A stretch of DNA of 26,199 nt from a virus. Made by a program: the position numbers and the translations under genes. Within the stretch, counting starts at the first letter, position 1. Every line of letters starts with the position of its first letter. Where the stretch lies: the IMG/VR virus record IMGVR_UViG_3300050821_000728, positions 1-26,199 of that record; one strand, written 5' to 3'. Of the stretch, positions 1,093 through 25,658 are shown piece by piece. The notes beneath the pieces were generated by a model. That model was not told where the DNA came from and searched no databases. It was given only the letters and a program-made list of their open reading frames with translations.

Positions 1093-1213
1093 CTGTTTAT
1101 ATATATAGTTCTAGGCTGAGATATTAAAAATTACCCATTTCGGGCTATAGGGATTATCTGGTTGGGGGTCTTGGTCTTATTCTCTCTCCCAATCGTTCTA
1201 GGGGGAAACTAGC

Positions 1214-1606
1214 ATGGCAAATGAGCCTATTAAACGTAAGCCTGGACGTCCAAGGATAGAGATTGATAGTGAGCAGGTGAAGGCCCTTGCCGCTAAGCAA
1301 TGGAAGACTACTGAGATAGCTGCATTCTTTGGAGTTGATAGGTCTCTTATTGAGCGGCGTTTTGGCGCAGAATTAATTGAAGGTAAGCAGTCTGGGTGCG
1401 CGAAACTCAGAGACCTGCAGTGGAAGCGGGCCTTGGAGGGGTCTGACCGCGTTATAATCCATATGTCTAAGCACTATTTAGGGCAGAATGAGAAGATAGA
1501 CTTGGAGAGTACGGTAAAGACTTCGAAGGGTATAATAGAGAAGGTTGGGGAGGATGGGGTAATTGAAGGAGAGTCAGTTTTATTCAAGCTCCCTAAAGAC
1601 ATCTGA
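1214..1606 (+). CDS. terS: Terminase small subunit (DNA-recognition component)
   Basis: 130 residues. The small terminase subunit recognises the packaging site on phage DNA and hands it to the large subunit. Residues about 7-16 (KRKPGRPRIE) resemble an AT-hook, a minor-groove-binding motif. Residues about 23-52 read as a helix-turn-helix (VKALAAKQWKTTEIAAFFGV followed by DRSLIERRF). The rest looks helical, followed by an acidic tail. The start is the ATG after GGGGG (1201-1205), 8 bases away. The 3' end overlaps the large terminase gene by 44 bases in another frame, a usual arrangement for this pair. Position and HTH make the call firm, although small terminases are poorly conserved in sequence. 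Confidence 0.85.
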   Translation: MANEPIKRKPGRPRIEIDSEQVKALAAKQWKTTEIAAFFGVDRSLIERRFGAELIEGKQSGCAKLRDLQWKRALEGSDRVIIHMSKHYLGQNEKIDLESTVKTSKGIIEKVGEDGVIEGESVLFKLPKDI

Positions 1607-2927
1607 GACAGTATTTAAGTTTACACCTCACAGTGTCAAACAGAGCAAATTAATCCACTCAAGAGCTGCTATGACTATAGCTGCGACTGGTACTCAATGG
1701 GGTAAGTCGATAGCTGGGGCCTTATGGATGCTTAAGCAGATGTACGAGTTCGATGAAGCAGGAAGCATGTTCCTGATCATGAGTCCTACCTATAAGATAA
1801 TGCAGCAGAGTGTCATTCCGCACTTTACTTCGTTTGCTAGGCATCTTGGATCGTTTAATCAGACTGAAGCGGTGTTTGAGACTGATGATAAGCAACGCGT
1901 TTTTTTTAGGACAGAGACAGATCCAGATTCCATTGTGGGGATACCTAAAGTTAGAGCATATTGGCTCGATGAGGCTGGGAAGGTATCTCTTTATTTCCAT
2001 GAGAACATACAGGCTCGAGCGGCATCGGTTGGAGCTCGTGGTTTGTACTCCACTTCTCCCTATACCCGTAATTGGTTGTTCAAGGACTACATCGCGAAGA
2101 AGAGGATGGGTGAGTTACCGGACGTTGAGTTGATTTGTGCCGCGTCGTGGGAGAATCCCTATCACTCACTCCATGACATTACGAAACGCAATCAGATGCG
2201 GATGCGGATGGACCCGCGCCGGTTTGACATGCTCTTTGGTGGCGAGTGGGGGACACAAGCCGGTCTTGTTTACGATTGCTTTGACCATGAGAGTAACATC
2301 TGTGAGCCTTTCCGTTTACCCGCTGGGACTTCGTATTATGGGGGGATTGATTGGGGACATACTGAGCCTTTCGTTATTGTGATTCGTGCAGTCACTCCTG
2401 AAGGTAAGCATTACCAGGTTTCGGAGTTCTATAAGACTGGGATGACTGTCCCTGACCAGTTAGCGATTGCCAGGCAGAAGATGGATATTTTTGGAGTGAA
2501 GATGTTCTACTGTGGACATGAGAGACCAGAGAACATCATGCTCTTTAATCAAAAGGGAGTCCCTGCTATCCCTGTCCCCGAAAAGGATATACAATTAGGG
2601 ACAGACCTTCATTACGAACTCATCAAGACGCTGCGCTATAAGATATTTAATAAGACATCCCCACATACGATTGATGAAATAGAAACATACCACTACCCAG
2701 AGCCAGAGGACTTAGATGCAGATGACGATGCAGAGGACCAAGCGCCGGTAGGACAGAATGACCATTGCATGAGTGCTAATAGGTTTGTTACGCTTCGCAC
2801 CTATAAGGCACATGTAAAGCTAAAGGCTTATACTCCAGTTGACGAAGGAGATGGAGAGCGCAAAGAGACCCAAGAGATGCGTCTAAAGAGATTGATGAAG
2901 CCTAAGAATCAAACTAGAATATTTTAA
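1563..2927 (+). CDS. terL: Terminase large subunit (packaging ATPase and nuclease)
   Basis: 454 residues, normal length for the family. The motor pumps DNA into the prohead and cuts the concatemer. Walker A is TGTQWGKS (residues 42-49) and Walker B with catalytic Glu is AYWLDEA (132-138). The RNase H-like nuclease has its first acidic residue in GGIDWGHTEP (D263) and a late acidic motif NDHCMSANRF (D400-H401); an acidic low-complexity stretch (about 379-392) precedes the latter. The start is TTG at 1563, 9 bases after GGAGG (1549-1553). The first in-frame ATG (1671) lies only a few residues before Walker A and would remove part of the fold. The gene overlaps terS, suggesting coupled translation. 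Confidence 0.95.
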   Translation: MKESQFYSSSLKTSETVFKFTPHSVKQSKLIHSRAAMTIAATGTQWGKSIAGALWMLKQMYEFDEAGSMFLIMSPTYKIMQQSVIPHFTSFARHLGSFNQTEAVFETDDKQRVFFRTETDPDSIVGIPKVRAYWLDEAGKVSLYFHENIQARAASVGARGLYSTSPYTRNWLFKDYIAKKRMGELPDVELICAASWENPYHSLHDITKRNQMRMRMDPRRFDMLFGGEWGTQAGLVYDCFDHESNICEPFRLPAGTSYYGGIDWGHTEPFVIVIRAVTPEGKHYQVSEFYKTGMTVPDQLAIARQKMDIFGVKMFYCGHERPENIMLFNQKGVPAIPVPEKDIQLGTDLHYELIKTLRYKIFNKTSPHTIDEIETYHYPEPEDLDADDDAEDQAPVGQNDHCMSANRFVTLRTYKAHVKLKAYTPVDEGDGERKETQEMRLKRLMKPKNQTRIF

Positions 2928-2938
2928 TCGGAGACAAT

Positions 2939-3190
2939 ATGAGCAATAGCGGTAAAGGCAGTGTTGGGGATGTAAACCTTCCTGTAAAAGCAATGGACCC
3001 ACAGACTAATTATTATGGCAAACCGCTGCGAATGAGCGATCCAGTAATGAGTAAGATGGTGGATGATAGCTTTGCTAACTCTAACCCCAACATGGTTAAC
3101 GGTGGCGAGGATGATAGACCAGCAAAGCATGCACATGATAAAGAAACTAGATTAGCTGCGATGAAGCGTCGCATGCAAAAAGCTTATTAA
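2939..3190 (+). CDS. Small hydrophilic phage protein, function unknown
   Basis: 83 residues, not recognised. It is polar with no membrane segment. The N-terminal half is Gly/Ser/Pro/Asn-containing and probably extended; the last 20 residues (ETRLAAMKRRMQKAY) are basic and likely helical. It begins 11 bases after terL with GGAG just upstream (2931-2934) and is followed 21 bases later by another small gene, so it is part of the terminase-portal operon. Small genes here in podoviruses are often uncharacterised virion or assembly factors. Confidence 0.75.
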   Translation: MSNSGKGSVGDVNLPVKAMDPQTNYYGKPLRMSDPVMSKMVDDSFANSNPNMVNGGEDDRPAKHAHDKETRLAAMKRRMQKAY

Positions 3191-3211
3191 CTAATAACAA
3201 AGGAAAGTAAA

Positions 3212-3400
3212 ATGGCAGGCGAAAAACCAAGTAGCGGCGTATACGAAACGTTTGATTCCGGTGATGGCCCGACGGTACCAGATGAATCACGTTCCGACTT
3301 TGCTAACGCTGATTCAAAAGAAGGATTGGAATCGTATTGCTCTAACCAAGCGCAAGTAGAACAAGGTCTCAATCCCGAAGTGCCTAGCAAAAAGCGTTAA
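3212..3400 (+). CDS. Small acidic phage protein, function unknown
   Basis: 62 residues, not recognised. It is acidic and Ser/Glu/Asp-rich, with no hydrophobic segment and a basic end (PSKKR). It has AAAGGAAAG ahead of ATG as ribosome binding site. Its TAA shares the final A with the ATG of the next gene (TAATG), a translational-coupling arrangement, and this supports it being genuinely translated. No function can be proposed. Confidence 0.7.
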   Translation: MAGEKPSSGVYETFDSGDGPTVPDESRSDFANADSKEGLESYCSNQAQVEQGLNPEVPSKKR

Positions 3401-3759
3401 TGGTCTACGAGTATCACTGTGCCAGTTGCGATTTACGTTTCGACGTTATCAAACGCGCCGCTGACTATGATTGCGAAGAACGGTGTACTCGGTGCGATGC
3501 TGTGGCCACTAGACAGTTCGTCCCACAAAGGATTCATCTGTTTGGTACGGCTGTAGAGAGTCCAGAATATAATCCTGGCCTTGGATGCATTGTGAATAAT
3601 AAGCAGCACAGGAAAGAGATTGCCAAGTCTAAGGGACTAATAGAACTTGGCAGTGAATCCGCTGATAATATTCACAAGCATTACGATAAAGCCCGCGAAG
3701 AGAAACATGAAGCTGCGTGGGAAGAAGCATCCAAGGGATGGATTGGAAGCGAGGGTTAA
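3400..3759 (+). CDS. FmdB-type zinc-ribbon protein
   Basis: 119 residues. The N-terminus (VYEYHCASCDLRFDVIKR) followed by CTRC matches the FmdB/CxxC-CxxC zinc-ribbon family, with Cys7, Cys10, Cys29 and Cys32 as probable zinc ligands; Cys25 is extra. The C-terminal part (about 75-119) is charged and helical (KGLIELGSESADNIHKHYDK then EEKHEAAWEEASKGW). FmdB-like ribbons are small putative regulators in bacteria and also occur next to structural genes in phages, where their role is not established. The ATG overlaps the previous stop, and the next gene follows its stop directly, so it belongs to the operon. Confidence 0.8.
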   Translation: MVYEYHCASCDLRFDVIKRAADYDCEERCTRCDAVATRQFVPQRIHLFGTAVESPEYNPGLGCIVNNKQHRKEIAKSKGLIELGSESADNIHKHYDKAREEKHEAAWEEASKGWIGSEG

Positions 3760-4113
3760 ATGGGTTTCGGTGCATTTACTTATTATGCTGTAACAATGGC
3801 AAGCGGAGGGTCTTTAACTACCGCACTAGACGCATCTAGAAGTTGGGATAAGGCGTATATCCATATCCCTACAATGCCTAGTGCCGCTCAGGTTTACATT
3901 CAAGCCTCTGAAACAGCTACCGGAACATTCGTTAGAGTATACCAACCGACACTCAACTCATCGACCGTTGGAACTAACGTTTTTACCATCGTTAGTAACC
4001 TAACCAACGCAATGGTGCCTATTCCAAACGGGCTTAGGTACTACAAGATAGAAACGGATGTCTCCTGCGCGGGTGGAGCTACCTTCTACCTCCTCTTTGG
4101 AGATGGGGCTTAA
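3760..4113 (+). CDS. Small Ser/Thr-rich predicted virion protein
   Basis: 117 residues, not recognised by family. It is rich in Ser, Thr, Ala and Val with alternating hydrophobic residues, as in a beta-sandwich (VYIQASETATGTFVRVYQP, then RYYKIETDVSCAGGATFYLL). No signal peptide. The start follows the preceding TAA directly, with GAGGG 5-10 bases upstream. Composition and place before another C1q-like gene suggest a head-surface or small fibre-associated component; this is inference from texture, not homology. Confidence 0.75.
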   Translation: MGFGAFTYYAVTMASGGSLTTALDASRSWDKAYIHIPTMPSAAQVYIQASETATGTFVRVYQPTLNSSTVGTNVFTIVSNLTNAMVPIPNGLRYYKIETDVSCAGGATFYLLFGDGA

Positions 4114-4116
4114 TCC

Positions 4117-4620
4117 ATGTCGCAAAACTCTGGCAACTGGTGGTCCGGTGCCGGTGGTGGTGCCGGCGGCGGCAGTTCAAAAAGCCTACAAATAGCTACT
4201 GCCCTGATGAGCACCACTCCAACCGTGAATGGAGCTACTACACTTCTCCCTGTTAATTTCGATTCAGTAGACAGTGATACCAATTCAACCATAACCACAG
4301 GAGTGGGTTGGAAATTCACTGCGCCGGTAACAGGTTCTTATATCATAGCTGCATGTATTACGTGGCAACCGCAGTCGGCCTGGACTGCTGGAGATGAAGC
4401 AATCATGAGCTTTACTAAAAACGTAGGGCAAACAATCGTAACGGCTACTCATTGGGTAAATGTTGGAGATTCCACAGACCTTCGAATGACTAATGTACTC
4501 ACCTATGCCTTGTCTCTTACTGCTGGAGATTATATTCAGGTTAGAGCTAGAAATATTTCTAGCGATGTTATGCAAATTGCCGCTGCTTATTCTTCGTTTA
4601 TGGCGTCTTGGACAGCGTAA
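4117..4620 (+). CDS. C1q/TNF-like virion protein (probable head fibre or appendage tip)
   Basis: 167 residues. A Gly-rich linker (about residues 8-21, GAGGGAGGGSS) precedes a region that reads like a C1q/TNF-type jelly roll: a VNFDSVDSDTNSTITTG strand, GVGWKFTAPVTGSYIIAACI, and a late LSLTAGDYIQVRARN segment, the pattern seen in trimeric phage fibre heads. Such domains bind ligands or trimerise on the virion surface. It starts 3 bases after the previous stop. The DNA just past its TAA is duplicated on the far side of the HNH gene. The fold call rests on pattern recognition, so it is moderate. Confidence 0.75.
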   Translation: MSQNSGNWWSGAGGGAGGGSSKSLQIATALMSTTPTVNGATTLLPVNFDSVDSDTNSTITTGVGWKFTAPVTGSYIIAACITWQPQSAWTAGDEAIMSFTKNVGQTIVTATHWVNVGDSTDLRMTNVLTYALSLTAGDYIQVRARNISSDVMQIAAAYSSFMASWTA

Positions 4621-4648
4621 GGGGGATTTATTTCAGAGATAACAGTCC
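4619..4648 (+). repeat. Upstream copy of the portal translation-start sequence
   Basis: Compared base for base with 5071-5100, 23 of 30 positions match, beginning AAGGGGG and ending GTCC. In frame +1 it encodes GG-F-ISEI-T-V; the other copy encodes GG-I-ISEI-V-V. Most differences are at third codon positions (GGA/GGC, TCA/TCT, GAG/GAA), the mark of two copies that have both been under coding selection. The two copies flank the HNH gene. Confidence 0.8.
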
Positions 4649-4665
4649 AACTCAAACAACGATTT

Positions 4666-5094
4666 ATGGAAAAGGTGGCATTTATTCCTTTCCATGAGTG
4701 TTGGGAGTGGACTGCCTCGTTGGATGGGCGCGGATATGGGCAAATTAATATAAATAAGAAAATGCATAGAGCGCATAGACTATCCTGGCAGATAGCAAAT
4801 GGGAGAGAGCTAACGAAAAACGAGTTAGTCTGCCATTCATGTGATAATCCAACCTGCGTTAATCCTAAGCACCTATGGATTGGAACACAAAAAGATAACA
4901 TGTCGGATTGTGCCAGAAAAAACAGGGTTTACAGACCGAAACCATATCTAACAACTCATTGTAAAAGAGGACACCTATTCGACGAGAAGTCGACCTATAT
5001 AGCTCCAAAAAAAGGAGATAGAAGGTGTCGTATATGTGCGGTTCGCCATCAACGCGATTATAGGCGCGCAAAGGGGGCATTATTTCTGAAATAG
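4666..5094 (+). CDS. HNH homing-type endonuclease at the start of the portal gene
   Basis: 142 residues from the first ATG. It shows the HNH_3-type pattern of phage homing endonucleases: CWEWTASLDGRGYGQI, then AHRLSW, then VCHSCDNPTCVNPKHLWIG and TQKDNMSDCARKNR, with the catalytic His in the VCHSC region. A second Cys/His cluster (HCKRGHLFDE, then RRCRICAVRHQRDYRR) is the usual C-terminal zinc-binding repeat. The ATG has no Shine-Dalgarno. The frame is open upstream to the TAA at 4618, and the codons before it (QLKQRF) resemble the normal N-terminus of such proteins. Real initiation may therefore be near the ATT at 4630 behind AAGGGGG. The 3' end overlaps the portal frame. It is probably a mobile gene that nicks phages lacking it. 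Confidence 0.85.
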   Translation: MEKVAFIPFHECWEWTASLDGRGYGQININKKMHRAHRLSWQIANGRELTKNELVCHSCDNPTCVNPKHLWIGTQKDNMSDCARKNRVYRPKPYLTTHCKRGHLFDEKSTYIAPKKGDRRCRICAVRHQRDYRRAKGALFLK

Positions 5095-5100
5095 TCGTCC
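5071..5100 (+). repeat. Downstream copy of the portal translation-start sequence
   Basis: Partner of 4619-4648 (23 of 30 identical, no gaps). This copy lies in the last codons of the HNH gene and leads directly into the portal coding sequence: GGC ATT ATT TCT GAA ATA GTC GTC CCT. It contains the portal's likely ribosome binding site AAGGGGG (5071-5077), but no ATG, GTG or TTG in the portal frame. Confidence 0.8.
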
Positions 5101-7037
5101 CTTATACTTCTGAGCATCAGGCACCTGATAATTCCCATGGTACTGTCCCTGGTTACAATCCTTCTGCTGAAGAAAAAGCAGTTATCCAATTAGTCGATGC
5201 TCTTTACTCTAAAGCAAAGAAATATCGTAAACGCTACGACCAGAGATGGATTGACTGGTACAAAATGTTTAGGGGGCGACAATGGAAGGAAGTGAGGCCA
5301 TCTTACCGATCTAGTGAAGTACTAAATTTAATTTTCGAGACCATTCAAAGCATGGTGCCTATCTTAGTAGATAGCAAACCAAAGCTTGCTTATCTCCCTA
5401 CTGTCCCATCCCAATTCGAATTAGCAGACATCCTTACTAAAGTGGCGGCTAATGATTGGGACCATAATAATTGGTTAGAGATTCTAGTGGAGATACTCTA
5501 TGACAGTCACCTTTATGGAACTGCCTTTGGATATGTGGGCTACAATCCGAAAGCAGAAATGGGATTGGGAGCGATTGAGTTTGAGAGCGCGGATAGCTTT
5601 TATTGTTTCCCTGACCCCCAGGCGCGAGACATTAATGGTAAGAGGACCAAATACTTCATCACGGCGGAACCTACAGACATATCAGAGGTTAGAAAACAAT
5701 ATCCTGATAAGGCGCAATACATTACCGCCGATATCATCGACTTTGCTCAGGGAGATAAAGCAGATATCTACCAAGTAATGTTTAAAAGTCCTACCGACTC
5801 TAAATTAATCATTGAAGGCCCATCCGGTTACGATTCTATTGCTAAAAATCAGTGTTTAAAAATCACCTGCTACTCAAAAGACGACGATTTTGATGAGGAA
5901 CGCGAGCTAGAGCTTAAAGAAGACGGTACTCCGCTACTCGATGATAAGGGAAATCAGATGGAGCGGTTTACGCAGACGATGAAATACCCGCAGGGGAGGA
6001 AAATAGTCGTCTGCGGTGGCGTTTTATGTGAAGACGACGATGCGGAATTCGAAGATGGGCTATTTCCGTTCGTTAGAATGACTAATTATGTTCTCCCACG
6101 TGAATTTTGGGGCGTTGGAGAGGTGGAAAACCTAGATTCTCCGCAAAAAACCATAAATAAGATTCTAGCCTTCGCTCTAGATACCATGTCTTTGATGTCT
6201 AACCCTATTTACGTTGTAGACGACACTTCTGGAGTAGATACAGACAACCTTTTTAATAAACCAGGACTGGTAATTGAGAAAACGCAAGGTAGTGAAGTCA
6301 CAAGAGAGTCTGGAGTGGAACTGCCTCCTTATGTCCTGTCTCTTCTTGATAGGTATAAGCAGTATTTTGATGGTATTTCCGGTCAAACGGACCTGTCTAG
6401 AGGTGTTGAGCCTAACGATATTACCGCCGCTTCTGCTATTGAGAATTTGCAGCAAGCGCAGCAGACAAGATTGCGACTAAAATCGAAACACGTTGACGCC
6501 TTCCTTCAAGACTTCGGGAAATTGTACCTATCGCGCGTTTTCCAATACTACAACGTGCCCCGTATCGTTCGGGTAAGCGGAGATAACAATGCAGACTCGT
6601 TTTTCCATTTCCACGTGGAACGTATTGCCGATCCGAATGGTGGGCCTGATAAGAAGGTAGCTCACGTTATAGATGCGCAAGGTAACGCGAAACAACATGA
6701 GATAACCGGCGACTTCGATGTGAAGGTTTCTACCGGCTCGTCACTCCCATTCGCTATGGCGGATAAGATTGATAAGGCGATGAAGCTATTTCAGTTAGGC
6801 GTTATAGATGCCGAAGAACTTTTGAAAGATATGGATTACCCGAACTATGAGGCTGTTTTACAGCGCGTACAGCAGCAGAAAGCGCAAATGGCTGGCCCGC
6901 AGATGCAGCAGCAGCAACAAATGGCTCAGGCTAAGATTGCAGAAACTCAGGGTAAGGCGAATCAGGCGCAGGCAACGGCAGTAGAGAAAATGCACGCGGT
7001 GCATACTGGCGCAAACGTGCCGCAGCCTGTAGGATAA
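5082..7037 (+). CDS. Portal protein (P22-like family), non-ATG start
   Basis: About 651 residues if begun at ATT 5082; 590 from the first ATG (5265). The dodecameric portal occupies one capsid vertex, anchors the terminase during packaging and joins head to tail. Hallmarks are the N-terminal helical segment (AEEKAVIQLVDALYSKAKKY and RWIDWYKMFRG), the VLNLIFETIQSMVPILVDSK stretch, a FPDPQARD region, and a Gln-rich coiled C-terminus typical of these portals. The 60 residues before ATG 5265 are clearly portal-like, so 5265 cannot be the true start. The frame opens only at 5064, inside the HNH gene. ATT 5082 with AAGGGGG upstream is the best guess; a -1 frameshift from the HNH frame at A-AAG-GGG (5070-5076) is the alternative. 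Confidence 0.93.
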   Translation: MSEIVVPYTSEHQAPDNSHGTVPGYNPSAEEKAVIQLVDALYSKAKKYRKRYDQRWIDWYKMFRGRQWKEVRPSYRSSEVLNLIFETIQSMVPILVDSKPKLAYLPTVPSQFELADILTKVAANDWDHNNWLEILVEILYDSHLYGTAFGYVGYNPKAEMGLGAIEFESADSFYCFPDPQARDINGKRTKYFITAEPTDISEVRKQYPDKAQYITADIIDFAQGDKADIYQVMFKSPTDSKLIIEGPSGYDSIAKNQCLKITCYSKDDDFDEERELELKEDGTPLLDDKGNQMERFTQTMKYPQGRKIVVCGGVLCEDDDAEFEDGLFPFVRMTNYVLPREFWGVGEVENLDSPQKTINKILAFALDTMSLMSNPIYVVDDTSGVDTDNLFNKPGLVIEKTQGSEVTRESGVELPPYVLSLLDRYKQYFDGISGQTDLSRGVEPNDITAASAIENLQQAQQTRLRLKSKHVDAFLQDFGKLYLSRVFQYYNVPRIVRVSGDNNADSFFHFHVERIADPNGGPDKKVAHVIDAQGNAKQHEITGDFDVKVSTGSSLPFAMADKIDKAMKLFQLGVIDAEELLKDMDYPNYEAVLQRVQQQKAQMAGPQMQQQQQMAQAKIAETQGKANQAQATAVEKMHAVHTGANVPQPVG

Positions 7038-9921: not shown

Positions 9922-10953
9922 ATGGCTGAGAAAAGAAAAGTAGAGATGGTACTGCAATATCAAAATTATATTGAAACTCCACCTGTGAGACCTTCACAGC
10001 TATGGGGTGCTGCGTGCTCTAGTGATACAGTCACTATCGAGTCATGGAGAAAGATTTGGTGCGATAACGTCACCGCTAATCATAAACACTTTGGAAGTTT
10101 TAAGGCTCATAGTGTTGGGCAGCTTTACCAAAAGAATCAGTATCGACCGGCTATCATAGTCGGTAGTGGTCCTTCACTTGGATATAACGGAGAGCATCTT
10201 AAGAATAAGAAAGACATCCCAGCGATTTCATGTCTTCATAATTATCATTTCTTTGAGGACCGTGGGATTAACATCGACTATTACGTTACCCTTGATGCTG
10301 GTCCCGTGGTCCTTGAGGAAGTATCAGAGGGCGGGAAAAAGTCGCCTGCTGAATATTGGGATTCTACCAAAGATAAAACAGTACTAGCATTCATTGGTAC
10401 TGACCCAGAATTCTTTAAAAAGTGGCAGGGAAAAGTTTATCTCTTCAACGCTCCAGTGCCGGACCCGGCATATATCAAGACCTTACAAGACCTAGAGCCT
10501 TTCCATTGCTACATCTCTAACGGTGGAAACGTCTTAGGCGCGTGTCTTTATATCGCTAAAGCGATTATGGGTAGCAATCCTATAGCGTTTATGGGAGCTG
10601 ACTTTAGCTTTGGATACGATAAGGGTGAAGGTCACAAATTCCATTCGTGGGATTCTAAGTACGATGCGAAGTTAGGAAACGTCCAGCGTGGTGTGGATGT
10701 GTTCGGTAACAAGGCGCTGACTTGGCCGTCTTATTTTAACTTCAAAAACTTTTTCGATTTTATAACGCTGCAAGTTCCAGGGCTTTACGTTAATTGCACA
10801 GAGGGTGGGATATTCGGTGCTTATCCAGAAGGCAATTTAATGAGCCTTAAGCAGCAAGCGTTAGAGGATTTCATTGGTATGTACCACATGAATGAGGCGA
10901 TCCGAGGGCAATGCGAAAACCCAGAGATTCCTGACAATAAACTGTTGTTTTAA
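9922..10953 (+). CDS. Maf/DUF115-family protein glycosyltransferase-like protein
   Basis: 343 residues. The core matches the DUF115 family (Maf motility accessory factor, PseE; MptE-like in databases): AIIVGSGPSLGYN (about 77-89) with the GxGPSL loop, INIDYYVTLDA ending at D125-A126, then SNGGNVLGACLYIAKAIMGS (199-218) and PIAFMGADFSF (220-230) with a nearby His pair (H238, H241). In bacteria Maf proteins attach pseudaminic or legionaminic acid from the CMP-sugar to Ser/Thr of flagellin. This copy is about half the length of flagellar Maf proteins. It has AGAAGGA upstream and sits between capsid and small virion genes. The sugar-nucleotide cassette at 22133-25658 supports a transferase over the alternative pterin pyrophosphokinase role. 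Confidence 0.8.
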   Translation: MAEKRKVEMVLQYQNYIETPPVRPSQLWGAACSSDTVTIESWRKIWCDNVTANHKHFGSFKAHSVGQLYQKNQYRPAIIVGSGPSLGYNGEHLKNKKDIPAISCLHNYHFFEDRGINIDYYVTLDAGPVVLEEVSEGGKKSPAEYWDSTKDKTVLAFIGTDPEFFKKWQGKVYLFNAPVPDPAYIKTLQDLEPFHCYISNGGNVLGACLYIAKAIMGSNPIAFMGADFSFGYDKGEGHKFHSWDSKYDAKLGNVQRGVDVFGNKALTWPSYFNFKNFFDFITLQVPGLYVNCTEGGIFGAYPEGNLMSLKQQALEDFIGMYHMNEAIRGQCENPEIPDNKLLF

Positions 10954-20472: not shown

Positions 20473-21414
20473 ATGGCTTTCCCCTCAGTAACATACACGT
20501 TCACAAATGGAACTACCGCAGACGGTACGCAGGTTAACCAAAACTTCACTGACCTAGTTAATGGAGTTTCCGACGGTACGAAGTCTCTTAATATCTCCGC
20601 ACTAACGTTAGGCTCTACACTAACGGCGAATGGCTCTGTAGTGTTAGGAGCTTCATCGGGTAACTCGATAACGGTAAACGGGTCCATTGGGTCTTCTATC
20701 GCTTATGCGAGTAATACTCTTTACGATATCGGTGGCGCTACTCTTGGAATAAGAAGTCTTTATGTCGGCGGTGGTAGTTCATTCACGGTAAGGCTACTCG
20801 GCGGGTCAATGTCGTCTAGTATGACTCTTACCCTGCCGACTGCGCTACCTGCTTCTACTGGAGTTATCGGAGTGACATCGGGTGGAGTGTTGTCATGCAC
20901 GATTACTCCTACCGTTACGTCATTAACACTGACTGCTGGCGGTGCTGTGTTATCGGCATCGGCGGATACGGCGACTAATGCGCTACTTAATCAGCCTTTG
21001 CAAATGACAACTGGCAATGCGGTGCTAGCGAGCTTTAGCACTCTTTCATTAGCGGTGCAGACTAAGCTAAACGCGAATGCTAGACCGATTGTCGTGTCTC
21101 CAGCGCCAGCCACACACGGGTTAATGGTAATAAGAGGACAGGTAGTACATCAGGCAGGTAATGGTGCGTGCTCTGTCGTTGGAGAGGGATTTACTGCATC
21201 TAGGACAGGAAGCGGCACTTACGTTGTAACTTTTAATCCGGTTTTCTTGGATGCGCCTGGTATTGGCCTCACTCAATGCTCAGACACACAGGGAGTTGTT
21301 TATACAAAAGGTTTTCCAACTACCAGCGGCTTTACATACCAATGCTTAACGTTAGGTGGTGGAACACAGGATACGGATACTGCATTCGTTGCCGTAGGAC
21401 AGCGTGCCTCCTAA
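20473..21414 (+). CDS. Tail fibre / receptor-binding protein (second fibre)
   Basis: 313 residues. The N-terminus (AFPSVTYTFTNGTTADGTQV followed by NQNFTDLVNGV) is the usual adaptor segment of phage fibres that anchors to the hub. The middle is Ser/Thr/Gly-rich and beta-repeated (SLTLTAGGAVL). The C-terminus from about 215 (GLMVIRGQVV ... GEGFTASRTGSGTYVVTFNP followed by VFLDAPG) is a C-terminal fibre domain widespread in phages, likely the receptor-contacting or trimerising tip. It follows the ejection module in the canonical podovirus fibre position. AAAGGAAA precedes the start. Its last 11 bases overlap the HNH gene. Confidence 0.85.
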   Translation: MAFPSVTYTFTNGTTADGTQVNQNFTDLVNGVSDGTKSLNISALTLGSTLTANGSVVLGASSGNSITVNGSIGSSIAYASNTLYDIGGATLGIRSLYVGGGSSFTVRLLGGSMSSSMTLTLPTALPASTGVIGVTSGGVLSCTITPTVTSLTLTAGGAVLSASADTATNALLNQPLQMTTGNAVLASFSTLSLAVQTKLNANARPIVVSPAPATHGLMVIRGQVVHQAGNGACSVVGEGFTASRTGSGTYVVTFNPVFLDAPGIGLTQCSDTQGVVYTKGFPTTSGFTYQCLTLGGGTQDTDTAFVAVGQRAS

Positions 21415-21649
21415 ATGCATAGTCTGTGGGGCTACTCCAACGGATAGGGACCATATACGAAGTCGCGGAGCAGGTGGTACGGACGATGACTGGAATATCT
21501 GGCATGTATGCCGTTTCCACCATCAACAAAAACATAGCATGTCCCTAACGTTATTCGTTAAGCACTATGGCTTGCAGGATGTCTTGATTAAGAAGGGCTG
21601 GGAGTTTGATTCCTTAATTAAGAAGTGGCGTCACATTGATTCTACGTAA
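21404..21649 (+). CDS. Small HNH endonuclease
   Basis: 81 residues, GTG start inside the fibre gene end. CIVCG (5-9), then DRDHIRSRGAGGTDDDWNIW and CRFHHQQKH give a compact HNH fold with DH as catalytic pair and Cys/His ligands. Stand-alone HNH proteins of this size assist terminase in some phages or act as homing nucleases. The stop overlaps the convergent KH-like gene by 19 bases. A weak AGGA lies upstream of the GTG, so translation is probably coupled to the fibre gene. Confidence 0.82.
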   Translation: MPPKCIVCGATPTDRDHIRSRGAGGTDDDWNIWHVCRFHHQQKHSMSLTLFVKHYGLQDVLIKKGWEFDSLIKKWRHIDST

Positions 21650-21932: not shown

Positions 21933-22136
21933 ATGACGCTAATTATCCTCACCGCAGCACTCACGTTATCCATCTCATGTAATGCATTTCTTTTCGTTCT
22001 ACTAAAGAAGAAACCTAAAAGGCAACAGAGCCAAGAGCTACAAGAATTCTTGGGTGACTTAATGAGTGGCTTCGGAATGATAGCAGTCTCTCGCGTAGAC
22101 CCGACAAGTATTCTCATGCGGAGCCCGAAGCGGTGA
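21933..22136 (+). CDS. Small single-pass membrane protein
   Basis: 67 residues. A hydrophobic segment (about 3-24, LIILTAALTLSISCNAFLFV) is followed by KKKPKRQQ, so the basic tail probably stays in the cytoplasm. The rest (ELQEFLGDLMSGFGMIAVSR) is amphipathic and ends RVDPTSILMRSPKR. No known family. The stop overlaps the GTG of the dehydratase gene (GTGA), so the membrane protein is translationally coupled to the sugar cassette and may belong to it. A holin is possible but the context argues against it. Confidence 0.75.
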   Translation: MTLIILTAALTLSISCNAFLFVLLKKKPKRQQSQELQEFLGDLMSGFGMIAVSRVDPTSILMRSPKR

Positions 22137-22990
22137 AATACCTAATCACCGGAATAACCGGCTCATTGGGTACGGCAGTATCTCGCTCTCTCCTTGATTC
22201 TGGTAATGAAGTAATTGGTATATCTAGAGACGAATGTAAGCAGGCCCGCATTCCAAGACACTCTAAACTAACTCTTTATCTATGCGATATCCGAGACCAA
22301 GACAGGTTTGTAGAAGCATCCCGTGGAGTAGACTTAATCTACCATTTTGCTGCTCTTAAGCACGTCGATATCTTGGAAGATAACCCAGAGGAGGCGATAG
22401 AAACAAATGTCGCAGGAACTAAAAATGTCCTTCATGCGCAAAGGGTTAATAAAGTGCCTAGGGTGGTGCTTAGTTCGACTGATAAGGCCGCATACCCAAT
22501 CAACACATACGGAATGTCTAAGGGTTTGGCTGAGAGACTTGTACTTAGAAATCCCTCCAACATCGTTTGCCGGTACGGGAACGTTCTTGCGTCAAGAGGC
22601 TCCGTGGTTGAGAAGTTTGTGCGTACCCTTAGAGACGCCAATACCGTCGAATTGACTGACGCTAACATGTCTCGGTTTTGGATAACCATTAAGGGGGCGG
22701 CGGAATTTGTTATTTGGAGTAGTCGAGATACTAAGGGCGGTTTAAAGATACCGCAGATGAAAGCAGCGAGTGTAAGTATGGTAGCGGAAGTGATTGCTAA
22801 GATAATGAAGATACCTTCCTATAAGGTGGTAGATGTTGGGATTAGAAAAGGTGAAAAGATTGCTGAGTGCTTACGTACTTCTTTTGAAGGCCAAGAGGCT
22901 TTTTCTAACTCGGTCACTCAATACACTGAAGAGGAATTAACCAATCTCCTATTACCGATAGTGGGGACATTGTGCCAAACCATACAGTAA
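22133..22990 (+). CDS. UDP-GlcNAc 4,6-dehydratase-like enzyme (PseB/FlaA1 family)
   Basis: 285 residues, extended short-chain dehydrogenase fold. The NAD(P) loop is GITGSLG (7-13). FAALKHVDILEDNPEEAIET (72-91), STDKAAYPINTYGMSK (115-130), RYGNVLASRGSVV and DANMSRFWITI are hallmarks of PseB, FlaA1 and CapD enzymes. Asp117-Lys118 and Tyr126-x3-Lys130 fit the active site. These enzymes convert UDP-GlcNAc to a 4-keto-6-deoxy sugar, the first step to pseudaminic acid, legionaminic acid or bacillosamine; C5 inversion cannot be decided from the motifs alone. GTG start, coupled to the gene before. It heads a block of overlapping genes. Confidence 0.88.
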   Translation: MKYLITGITGSLGTAVSRSLLDSGNEVIGISRDECKQARIPRHSKLTLYLCDIRDQDRFVEASRGVDLIYHFAALKHVDILEDNPEEAIETNVAGTKNVLHAQRVNKVPRVVLSSTDKAAYPINTYGMSKGLAERLVLRNPSNIVCRYGNVLASRGSVVEKFVRTLRDANTVELTDANMSRFWITIKGAAEFVIWSSRDTKGGLKIPQMKAASVSMVAEVIAKIMKIPSYKVVDVGIRKGEKIAECLRTSFEGQEAFSNSVTQYTEEELTNLLLPIVGTLCQTIQ

Positions 22991-23688
22991 CTATCGGCGT
23001 ACAGGCCCGCTCTACCTCTACCCGTTTACCCAATAAGATTAACGCACAGATTGGCTCTCGTAAGCTTTTAGACCATGTACTTGATTCGTGTAAGAAGGCG
23101 ACGCTGTATCTTAATAACTGGAATACGAAGTCTATCATTGCAGAGACATTCCTACTTATCCCAAAGGGAGACCCGATAAAGGATAGGTTTAATAATATAT
23201 GGGCTTCGATAGAAGGGGATGAACATGACGTGCTCTCTAGATACGTTAATTTGCAAAAGTGGCAAAAGTCCGCTTTTATTGTTCGTGTTACTGGGGATTG
23301 CCCTCTTATACCATCTTTTGTCATCTCGAAAATGATTACACTCGCCGTAATGAATAATTACGATTACGTATCCAATGTAGACGAGAGAGTGAGGACTGCG
23401 CCGGATGGGTTTGACTGCGAAGTAGTATCGAAGAGGATGCTTGCCTGGTTAGACGAGAATGCTAAATCGAAAGAGGATAGGGAGCATGTAACACTACTCG
23501 CTCGCAGGGAGTTTCCTGACTATTACAAACAGGCTTGCATGATTAACTATATGGACCTATCTGGTATTAAATTGTCTGTGGACACTAACGACGATTTAAC
23601 TAGGGTGATTGAGGAATATATCCGCGTCGAGAAGAAAGTTCATTTGGCGAATAAGATATTTGGTAAATCGGCGGTGCATCGTGTTTAA
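22972..23688 (+). CDS. SpsF-type cytidylyltransferase (CMP-sugar synthetase family)
   Basis: 238 residues. The nucleotide-binding signature QARSTSTRLPNK (11-22) corresponds to the QARxxSTRLPGK of SpsF/NeuA-type proteins. IVRVTGDCPLI (103-113) carries the metal-binding Asp109, RTAPDGFDCEV (141-151) and EDREHVT (168-174) also match the SpsF family. Members are cytidylyltransferase-like enzymes of surface-polysaccharide and spore-coat clusters, taken to activate an acidic sugar with CTP. GTG start overlapping the dehydratase by 19 bases. In this cassette it would provide the CMP-sugar that a Maf-type transferase needs; the exact substrate is unknown. Confidence 0.85.
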   Translation: MPNHTVTIGVQARSTSTRLPNKINAQIGSRKLLDHVLDSCKKATLYLNNWNTKSIIAETFLLIPKGDPIKDRFNNIWASIEGDEHDVLSRYVNLQKWQKSAFIVRVTGDCPLIPSFVISKMITLAVMNNYDYVSNVDERVRTAPDGFDCEVVSKRMLAWLDENAKSKEDREHVTLLARREFPDYYKQACMINYMDLSGIKLSVDTNDDLTRVIEEYIRVEKKVHLANKIFGKSAVHRV

Positions 23689-24904
23689 GGGTAAGAGCAG
23701 GATAGACGGTGAGTTGTATCGACGAGCGATGGAGTCTATCGCCCACGGAAGTCTAACAAACTCCAAGCGTCCAGAGAGCTATGTTAAGAACGTTTTCCCT
23801 GTTCATCTTAAAGAAGGAAATGGTTGTTACGTCCATGACACATTTGGAAATAGGTATGTGGATTTTATTTGTGGCCTTGGATCTAATCTGTTTGGTTACG
23901 GCAACGAGGAGATTGCTAAAGTTGTATCCTCCCAATTTTCCAAGGGTGCCGTTTTGTCTTTGGGTACGCCGATTGAAGTTGAAGCTGCTGAAAGAGTTAA
24001 GGCAGTGGTCCCTGTAATTGAAAGGCTTCGTTTTCTAAAGACTGGGAGTGAGGCGACGGCGGCGGCGTTAATCATTGCGCGAGCGTTTACCAAGAGAGAG
24101 AAGGTGCTAAGCGATGGATACCATAGTTGGATGGCTGAATTCACATCGCTTACCGCTCCAGCTAATGGCGTGGTCCGTAGCGACTATCGTAGTATCTCTA
24201 AGTTTAACTCTCTTGATGATATTAATGACAAAATTGCTGCGGTGATTCTTGAGCCTGTTATCATTGACAATTCGCCAGTAAATACTGATTTCCTGCAAAG
24301 ATTGAGGCAGAAATGTACTAAGCATGGAGCGCTTCTTATCTTTGATGAAATCATTACGGGGTTTCGTGTCCCGGAGTATACGATTGCTCAGCGTCTTGGT
24401 ATTACTCCTGACCTTATCTGTCTTGGTAAGGCTATTGGAGGCGGCCTACCGTTGTCTGTGGTAGGTGGGAAAAAAGACATCATGGAGAGTGAGTATTTTG
24501 TCTCTTCAACGTTCGCTGGGGATACGCTTGCGCTGGCTGCTTGTATCAAGGTGTTGGACCTACTTAAAGACAAGTACAAGTTGGAAGACCTTTGGTTGTC
24601 TGGTGAGGATTTTAGGTATCACTTTAATCAACTGGGTGAAGGGATTGTTTCATTAGAGGGGTACCCTACTCGCGGAATTATTCAGGGAGAGCCTTTAAAT
24701 AAAGCGCTCTTTATGCAAGAGGCTTGCAAGGCGGGGCTTCTATTTGGCAGCTCTCTCTTTTATAATTTCTGCCATGTCGGGATTAAAGAGGATGTGCTGT
24801 CCATCCTAAGAGATGTGTTTGGTAAATTAAAACGTGGCGAGTGTGAATTAGAGGGCGAGATGCCTTCTAGTCCATTTGCTCAAAAGGTAAGGGAGAAAAC
24901 ATGA
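23681..24904 (+). CDS. Class III PLP aminotransferase (glutamate-1-semialdehyde mutase-like)
   Basis: 407 residues from GTG 23681, which overlaps the preceding gene by 8 bases; longer in-frame starts would lie deep inside that gene. Conserved points are FLKTGSEATAAA (118-129), GYHSW (146-150), FDEIITGFRV (221-230; Asp222 contacts the PLP pyridine) and LGKAIGGGLP with Lys250 as Schiff-base lysine, then STFAGDTLALAA. The fold matches HemL-type enzymes. In a sugar cassette it is better seen as an amino-transferring enzyme acting on a keto sugar or related intermediate than as a heme enzyme; such HemL-like genes recur in bacterial surface-glycan clusters beside SpsF. It replaces the DegT-type PseC expected for pseudaminate, which is absent. 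Confidence 0.88.
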   Translation: MFKGKSRIDGELYRRAMESIAHGSLTNSKRPESYVKNVFPVHLKEGNGCYVHDTFGNRYVDFICGLGSNLFGYGNEEIAKVVSSQFSKGAVLSLGTPIEVEAAERVKAVVPVIERLRFLKTGSEATAAALIIARAFTKREKVLSDGYHSWMAEFTSLTAPANGVVRSDYRSISKFNSLDDINDKIAAVILEPVIIDNSPVNTDFLQRLRQKCTKHGALLIFDEIITGFRVPEYTIAQRLGITPDLICLGKAIGGGLPLSVVGGKKDIMESEYFVSSTFAGDTLALAACIKVLDLLKDKYKLEDLWLSGEDFRYHFNQLGEGIVSLEGYPTRGIIQGEPLNKALFMQEACKAGLLFGSSLFYNFCHVGIKEDVLSILRDVFGKLKRGECELEGEMPSSPFAQKVREKT

Positions 24905-25128
24905 ATCAGGCATTTCTAGATACGTTACGGTCACTCAAAGAAGAGTCTCTTGGTTTAAAGAACCGTGAAGTAGAGACAAAGCCAGCGATTGATGCGGTAG
25001 GGAAACTGAAAACGGATAACGGACTCCATCAGGAAAAGGTGGGCGGGTTTCTTAGGGAGAATGGGTTAGCCGAAACGTTTACTTTAGCAGAGGCTCTTTG
25101 TTGGGCGGCTGAAAAGGCTATTGGTTGA
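24901..25128 (+). CDS. Small helical protein in the sugar cassette, function unknown
   Basis: 75 residues, unrecognised. It is charged and mostly helical (FLDTLRSLKEESLGLKNREV, then EALCWAAEKAIG). It lacks the DSL serine of an acyl carrier protein, so that idea was dropped. ATG overlaps the preceding stop (ATGA), and its own stop overlaps the TTG of the acetyltransferase. Tight packing on both sides argues for real translation and perhaps a small partner subunit of one of its neighbours. Confidence 0.7.
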   Translation: MNQAFLDTLRSLKEESLGLKNREVETKPAIDAVGKLKTDNGLHQEKVGGFLRENGLAETFTLAEALCWAAEKAIG

Positions 25129-25658
25129 TAACTCTTCCCGACAACAAGACTTGTCTAGTTAAGGACATACCAAGAGATGCCCTGGCGTGGAGGAATGCAC
25201 CTATCATAAATAAGTGGTGCAGGCAGGTTACGGACATTTCCTCATTCTCTCATTCTAGGTGGTTAGAGAAGATAGAGACTGACCCAACGATAGAGATGTA
25301 CGGGATATTGGATAAGTCTAAAGTGATGGTGCAGATGCTAGACTTGGAAATTGGCGTCTGCGGTTTCACGTCGATAAACCATATCAATCAATCGGCAGAA
25401 TTCTCATTGTACATAGCTCCGAAGTATCAGAAAAAAGGATTCGGAGCAGATGCATTAAGGCTATTATGTAATCACGGGTTTAAGTCGATGAACTTAAATC
25501 GTATATGGGGGGAAGTATTTATAGGAAACCCAGCGATGAAGATATTTCAGCAGTTGGGTTTTGTGTTGGAGGGGCATTTACGGCAGTCGTATTTTAAAGA
25601 TGGTAAGTTTATTGATTCAGAAATTATCTCGCTACTCAGGGGCGAAGCGTGTTTGTAG
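25125..25658 (+). CDS. GNAT acetyltransferase (PseH/RimL-like)
   Basis: 177 residues, TTG start within the overlap TTGA. The N-terminal region is followed by GVCGFTSINHINQSAEFSLY (77-96), the acetyl-CoA-binding motif QKKGFGADALRLL (102-114; Q/R-x-x-G-x-G/A), VFIGNPAMKIFQQLGFVLEG (121-140) and HLRQSYFKDGKFIDSEIISL, a tail typical of the RimJ/RimL class and of PseH, which N-acetylates a 4-amino-4,6-dideoxy sugar nucleotide. With the dehydratase and aminotransferase upstream it would complete a diacetamido sugar. A protein N-acetyltransferase cannot be excluded. Confidence 0.85.
   Translation: MITLPDNKTCLVKDIPRDALAWRNAPIINKWCRQVTDISSFSHSRWLEKIETDPTIEMYGILDKSKVMVQMLDLEIGVCGFTSINHINQSAEFSLYIAPKYQKKGFGADALRLLCNHGFKSMNLNRIWGEVFIGNPAMKIFQQLGFVLEGHLRQSYFKDGKFIDSEIISLLRGEACL

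Follow-up and report, generated by a model that had tools for sequence, protein, structure and literature searches.

Why should the first codons of a phage portal gene appear twice, once in front of an HNH endonuclease gene and once again at its end? This arrangement is found in the window, as we call the whole stretch of 26,199 nt that was analyzed. The features concerned are collected in Table 1, together with those of comparable loci. An earlier note on this DNA had proposed that a mobile HNH gene came to lie directly behind the start of the portal gene and brought a recoded copy of this start, so that the portal is still made.

Table 1. Features of the window and of other loci with terminal copies (L numbers designate loci or records outside the window, with their own coordinates).
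Feature	Position	Strand	Details
167-aa gene (window)	4117..4620	+	phrog_15750, unknown function; its TAA abuts copy 1
Copy 1 of portal initiation region (window)	4619..4648	+	Shine-Dalgarno AAGGGGG, 4 nt, ATT, codons I-S-E-I-T-V
HNH endonuclease ORF (window)	4630..5094	+	154 aa from ATT 4630; HNH_3 PF13392 E=8e-8; phrog_826 E=2e-35
Element body between the copies (window)	4649..5070	+	HNH coding sequence only
Copy 2 of portal initiation region (window)	5071..5100	+	Shine-Dalgarno AAGGGGG, 4 nt, ATT 5082, codons I-S-E-I-V-V
P22-like portal gene (window)	5082..7037	+	predicted start ATT 5082; PF16510 E=4e-40; phrog_156 E=4e-60
HNH stop codon TAG (window)	5092..5094	+	10 nt inside copy 2
L084 (= L089)	2324-3530		34-residue 5' copy of the N-terminus of a TOPRIM primase gene
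L108 (= L112)	2474-3350		5' copy; target glycosyltransferase-like
L188	2501-3150		5' copy; target unknown
Escherichia phage PSK2 (L196)	1128-1659		HNH at the 3' end of the DNA polymerase gene, with replacement polymerase end

The ungapped match between the two copies, 23 of 30 bases as the earlier note had counted, is confirmed by a recount, by shuffling and by mismatched pairs. None of 300 dinucleotide shuffles of positions 4519-5200 (682 bases) reaches 23, the maximum being 21. Among 495 pairs of gene starts in the window, the highest match apart from the two copies is 18 out of 30, while 354 window-specific and 1306 GC-matched pairs, in which the flanks of real HNH genes were mismatched, reach 21 at most. 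The edges of the repeat are sharp: the adjoining ten-base blocks match at 0-5 of 10 positions on both sides. Both translations contain GG-x-ISEI-x-V, as had been observed. The protein score of the copies, 33, is not significant (537 shuffles, with a maximum of 40), so the significance of the pair is carried by the DNA level and by its position. With nine codons, this is the shortest of the terminal copies we have found. Four of these codons are identical, three are synonymous and two are non-synonymous, and the seven differing bases include four at third codon positions. The earlier description of these differences as largely synonymous, third-position changes is therefore too strong for the window copy.

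The HNH gene is free-standing: its reading frame takes up the segment and has a stop codon of its own. The match of the protein to HNH_3 is above the cut-off, and its motif residues H, C, D and N are invariant in the family alignment; a comparison by sequence with solved structures gives no match. Copy 1 is in frame with this gene and supplies its sole upstream start candidates, ATT 4630 with AGGGGG four bases before it. The first ATG is found at 4666, and a start at this point would lose the preceding residues KQRF, of which RF is common to several members of the HNH family at the same place. The proposal that the HNH gene borrows the first copy for its translation is thus supported: copy 1 is the HNH N-terminus, and the HNH stop is found inside copy 2. 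The position of this stop makes the portal start and the HNH end overlap, and translational coupling is possible. The sequence patterns used did not detect any relative of the 167-aa upstream gene in viral contigs.

Other regions of the window may be mentioned here. A second, unrelated small HNH protein (HNHc_6, 81 aa, GTG start) is found at 21404-21649, its gene overlapping the end of the preceding one by 11 bases. A MptE-like (DUF115) protein is coded among the structural genes (9922-10953), and there is also a sugar cassette (22133-25658) with genes for a polysaccharide dehydratase, a cytidylyltransferase, a class III aminotransferase and an acetyltransferase. Taken together, the MptE-like gene and the cassette look like a nonulosonic-acid-type sugar pathway. 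The related record L012 has a gene of the NeuB family.

Initiation of the portal at the rare start codon ATT 5082 is likely, since the portal frame contains no ATG, GTG, TTG or CTG between the stop at 5061 and the ATG at 5265, and the alignment with relatives begins at this ATT: the window portal is 74% identical to that of L002 from this residue onward. A start at ATG 5265 would remove 61 conserved residues. Relatives without the HNH gene have portals with 74% (L002), 63% (L010 and L011), 55-60% (L012 and L013), 43% (L022) and 41% (L023) identity to that of the window. In all of them the portal gene is uninterrupted, its ATG is located at the stop of the preceding gene or close to it, and no HNH gene is found before it.

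The portal N-terminus is MSEITVPY in both L002 and L010. Copy 1 (ISEITV) agrees with the MSEITV of these two records except for the start residue, and its SEITV residues are also identical in L011. It retains the threonine at position 5, with the codon ACA of the relatives, where copy 2 (ISEIVV) has valine. Over 19 bases copy 1 matches the relatives slightly better, at 12-13 positions, than copy 2, at 10-11 (13 versus 11 in L010); over six residues, copy 1 has five matches and copy 2 has four. Both copies, not just one of them, are homologous to the portal starts of the relatives without HNH, and the residue identity of copy 1 supports the claim that it was the original portal start. Both have ATT-TCN where the relatives have ATG-AGC, which argues that they are copies of one another and not independent starts.

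The earlier note had also expected that relatives lacking the HNH gene would have a portal start which follows directly on the 167-aa gene. The homologous portal start, MSEITVPY, is found in these relatives, but the exact junction of the window is not: none of the relatives found has the two genes which precede HNH (3760-4620), so this junction is not directly reconstructable. Portal relatives in phage records are all distant, and searches of bacterial and archaeal genomes gave none. Among the relatives found, with 41-74% portal identity, there is no close one with an empty site. A search for ATT-start copies elsewhere with degenerate patterns gave chance matches only.

We have surveyed about 180 HNH loci, obtained by collecting HNH relatives from viral contigs and phage genomes. 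In each locus the sequence before the HNH core was scanned against the sequence at the HNH end, with the 537 shuffles mentioned above as a control. Besides the window, five or more settings in unrelated phages also have terminal copies, as independent parallels. L084 (score 102), the group of Escherichia phage PSK2 (58-71), L033 (55) and L108 (51) are clear cases; L188, with a score of 42, is also backed by its position and DNA identity. In L084, L108 and L188, as in the window, the HNH stop is found in the second start of the target gene or next to it.

The HNH protein of L084 starts with MLNEKQRISLTDAAERYSSNLTTQARSYLEGLTE, and the product of the next gene, a TOPRIM primase, starts with VLNEKQRTLLTDAANRYSESLSEQAKDYLKDRGLTE. 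Out of 31 codons, two are identical, 17 are silently different and 12 are different: 17 of the 19 codons which code for the same residue have changed. The HNH start overlaps an upstream zinc-finger primase gene. In mycobacteriophage NicoleTera, which has no HNH gene at this place, the second primase frame also overlaps the upstream primase gene, so the first copy of L084 appears to be at its native place and the second one appears to be extra.

About 95% of the surveyed HNH genes have no terminal copy. An HNH gene near a gene start can thus do without the duplication, which is one strategy among several. No duplication is found where HNH genes adjoin T7-like portal, ligase or polymerase starts. 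We have rejected Klebsiella phage IME205 and other Autographiviridae as parallels on this account, since their HNH genes abut the starts of DNA polymerase, ligase, endonuclease I or portal genes without any copy. L034 has tandem HNH paralogues instead, and L172 is ambiguous, with copies far from the HNH end. Outside our count of cases, the HNH gene of L068 (2459-3062) is flanked by a 46-nt diverged repeat which includes a hairpin, a ribosome-binding site and ATGGAG; it may be a version of the terminal copy for regulatory regions.

The arrangement is reversed in L033 and in the PSK2 group, where the copied part is the end of the upstream gene. In L033 this end, APCREPKKG, recurs as the HNH end with silent changes; the target gene has no relatives in phages. 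The PSK2 group allows a comparison with empty sites. An HNH gene is found at the 3' end of the DNA polymerase gene in Escherichia phage PSK2 and in Klebsiella phages Henu2_3, pKP-M186-2.2 and RCIP0106 (L203-L205). About 170 other matching records, with 80-95% identity, nearly all contain the flanks only, which corresponds to an empty site (56 among the matches listed). The presence of HNH at this single site therefore varies among near relatives of PSK2. In five phages with an empty site, the polymerase ends in GCTGAAATGGGTACAAGCATGTACAGTAAGGAGAAAGTAGAATGA or nearly so. In the phages with HNH, this native end has been displaced downstream and now codes for the HNH C-terminus.

The two ends may be told apart without difficulty in PSK2, pKP-M186-2.2 and RCIP0106. 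Compared to the phages with an empty site, the displaced native end differs at 1-5 of 45 bases, and the polymerase end in use at 12-17 (27-38%). When PSK2 alone is compared with its near relatives, the displaced copy has 1-2 differences in 45 bases and the copy in use has 12-15. Just upstream of the replaced end, the polymerase gene is only 3-14% different over 200 bases. The copy which serves the target gene is the foreign one. Out of the 15 codons of the end in use, 4-7 are silently changed and four are replaced with respect to the native end; the corresponding proteins end in CEMGVSMYAKEKIE (replacement) and AEMGTSMYSKEKVE (native). Among these three phages, 1-3 of 45 bases differ between the replacement ends, against 52-72 of 380 (14-19%) between the HNH bodies. 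An end which is nearly constant next to such variable bodies is best considered as part of the mobile unit.

Two other observations were made in these genomes. In Henu2_3 the start of the HNH gene is closely followed by a run of G, and the annotated ORF is shortened. In other phages of this group, such as Klebsiella phage SU503 (L211, 500-1048), a different gene comes right after the DNA polymerase gene, annotated as nucleotidyltransferase or poly A polymerase in relatives, and the polymerase end there is native.

We may now return to the window. It contains a duplicated portal start, the first copy of which has been captured in frame by the HNH gene. We estimate at about three in four the probability that this is a free-standing HNH homing endonuclease gene within the portal gene, with copy 1 as the native start and copy 2 as a recoded replacement. 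This polarity is the mirror image of the PSK2 case at the 3' end. It agrees with the one proposed in the earlier note, to which the residue identity in the window, the primase overlap in L084 and the empty sites of the PSK2 group lend support. The idea that the 3' end of the element supplies the recoded copy also fares well: copy 2 is the likely portal start, and the PSK2 copy travels with HNH.

According to this reading, the HNH gene would have been inserted into the portal gene directly behind the sixth codon. The first codons and the native ribosome-binding site would have remained upstream, where they would now start the endonuclease. The 3' end of the element would supply the diverged copy 2, which would include a ribosome-binding site and an ATT start of its own, and a full portal would still be made. 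The endonuclease would cut or nick the native junction in phages with an empty site, and repair from the genome which bears the element would install the HNH gene and the recoded end together. Both would be copied at once, as the two genomes would be homologous again only past the replaced codons. These codons would no longer form the target, which would stop re-cutting while the protein is kept.

The duplication might also be a by-product of insertion: illegitimate recombination, or an event similar to target-site duplication, would have copied 30 bp, and the copies would have drifted later, with no function in immunity. A 30-bp direct repeat around a 422-bp insert is indeed the footprint expected from insertion at a staggered cut, and the window copies differ at just seven positions, with two non-synonymous codons out of nine. 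We consider this explanation unlikely. In the PSK2 group the copy in use is practically unchanged across HNH bodies which differ by 14-19%, and it is 27-38% away from the native end: this combination indicates that the end travels with the element, and does not arise by drift after each insertion. The change in 17 of 19 codons with the same residue in L084 also speaks against simple drift.

A role in packaging would make the repeated start incidental: the HNH protein would be a packaging nuclease of the HK97 gp74 or lactococcal HrdP type, acting with the terminase. An HNH gene immediately before the portal gene is a fixed feature of lactococcal Skunavirus phages (PMC6105707, PMC12724721), and in T7 the portal gene is likewise preceded by gene 7.7. 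We find this very improbable for the window, because the terminase-portal region of its relatives has no HNH gene. None was detected before the portal in any relative found, and five out of six relative records, which may be fragments, lack an HNH of the window type. The window protein, besides, matches the homing-type families HNH_3 and phrog_826.

Two gene starts might also resemble each other by chance or by functional convergence, with similar ribosome-binding sites and an MSE-type N-terminus. AAGGGGG is by itself a plausible ribosome-binding site and accounts for seven of the 23 matches, and the protein score alone is not significant. In L190, moreover, shared promoters explain a match of 22 out of 30: its HNH gene and the next gene (2460-3000) have promoter-like sequences in common (TTGACAAAT, then TATAGT/TATGAT). 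We have rejected L190 as a parallel for this reason, and it is a caution that regulatory convergence can mimic a terminal duplication. Nevertheless, convergence is extremely unlikely in the window, where the control pairs described above all stay below 23 and both copies share the rare ATT start and the ATT-TCN which sets them apart from the ATG-AGC of the relatives.

The bypass of T4 gene 60 has matched take-off and landing sites. A similar arrangement here, or a degenerate group I intron, in which copy 1 would begin the portal and the 452-nt segment would be hopped over or removed, is practically negligible: in T4 gene 60 ribosomes do bypass a 50-nt insert, which is linked to a homing endonuclease (PMC5009743), but the window segment has no match to RNA families in Rfam, group I introns included, at the gathering threshold or even at E<=1, it is almost entirely HNH coding sequence with no room for a group I ribozyme, and copy 2 alone gives a full-length portal with the conserved N-terminus. 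The earlier claim that the element differs from group I introns and inteins agrees with this, as we have found neither.

On balance, we favor the existence of a recurrent class of phage HNH genes which insert in the first or last codons of a target gene and bring a recoded version of the part which has been cut off, at either end. If this is true, these genes would be natural home-and-rescue drives. Recoding which blocks re-cutting while keeping the protein would be selected, and capture of the start or stop region of the target would drive expression of the nuclease. This bears on how a selfish nuclease may occupy a conserved part of an essential gene with neither intron nor intein: it carries the missing piece in a form from which the protein can still be made, while the target site is presumably lost. 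Annotators should also be aware that, where an HNH gene seems to have a short N- or C-terminal "extension", this can be a captured piece of a neighboring gene.

Several known systems may be compared with these elements. The free-standing HNH genes of phages, such as the T4 mob genes and the I-HmuI-like genes of Skunavirus, are described in excerpts of two papers (PMC2988022, PMC12724721) as stand-alone ORFs next to or inside essential genes which overlap their neighbors, as in the window. Several of the T4 examples are promoterless; mobE splits nrdA of Aeh1 and mobA splits T4 gene 60 (excerpts of PMC2988022). They are found between genes or split a gene, and unlike the window, a recoded target end is not mentioned in these excerpts. 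Our searches of the open-access literature gave no account of recoded target ends being carried by endonuclease genes in phages. The case of mobA and gene 60 (PMC5009743) resembles the window in that a homing endonuclease is associated with an odd sequence solution which keeps the target product. The solutions are different: in T4 the gene is split and the ribosome skips 50 nt, while in the window the gene end is supplied again with no skipping. The engineered gene drive HomeR, a synthetic Cas9 system in insects, also places a homing element in an essential gene whose function is kept during spread, as far as excerpts of its description indicate (PMC7968924). HomeR is synthetic, while the phage elements are natural, with a presumed resistance to cutting.

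The closest known kind are the mORFs of fungal mitochondria with carboxy-terminal duplication, found in atp6 of Allomyces macrogynus and in atp6, atp9, cox2 and nad3 of Glomus (PMC3630166). In both systems a free-standing endonuclease ORF is found inside a gene, the native end of which is left beyond the ORF. The gene end which is missing is brought along by the fungal element as a diverged, largely synonymous copy, and the phage elements also bring a diverged copy. Compared to the ends of a close relative, the inserted fungal ones have 64-81% DNA identity, and the proteins are much more alike (PMC3630166). The earlier idea of a mobile gene which duplicates the start signal of its target is supported, but it is not without precedent, as these fungal C-termini already illustrate the principle. 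Fungal mORFs code for LAGLIDADG or GIY-YIG endonucleases and are found in mitochondria at 3' ends, whereas the window has an HNH gene in a phage, at a 5' end which includes a translation start: its duplication is amino-terminal instead of carboxy-terminal. PSK2 and L033, with carboxy-terminal duplications, are direct phage counterparts of the fungal mORFs at the 3' end. What sets the window apart is a phage HNH element at the 5' end which duplicates a translation start; the kind to which it belongs is already known from the fungal mORFs.
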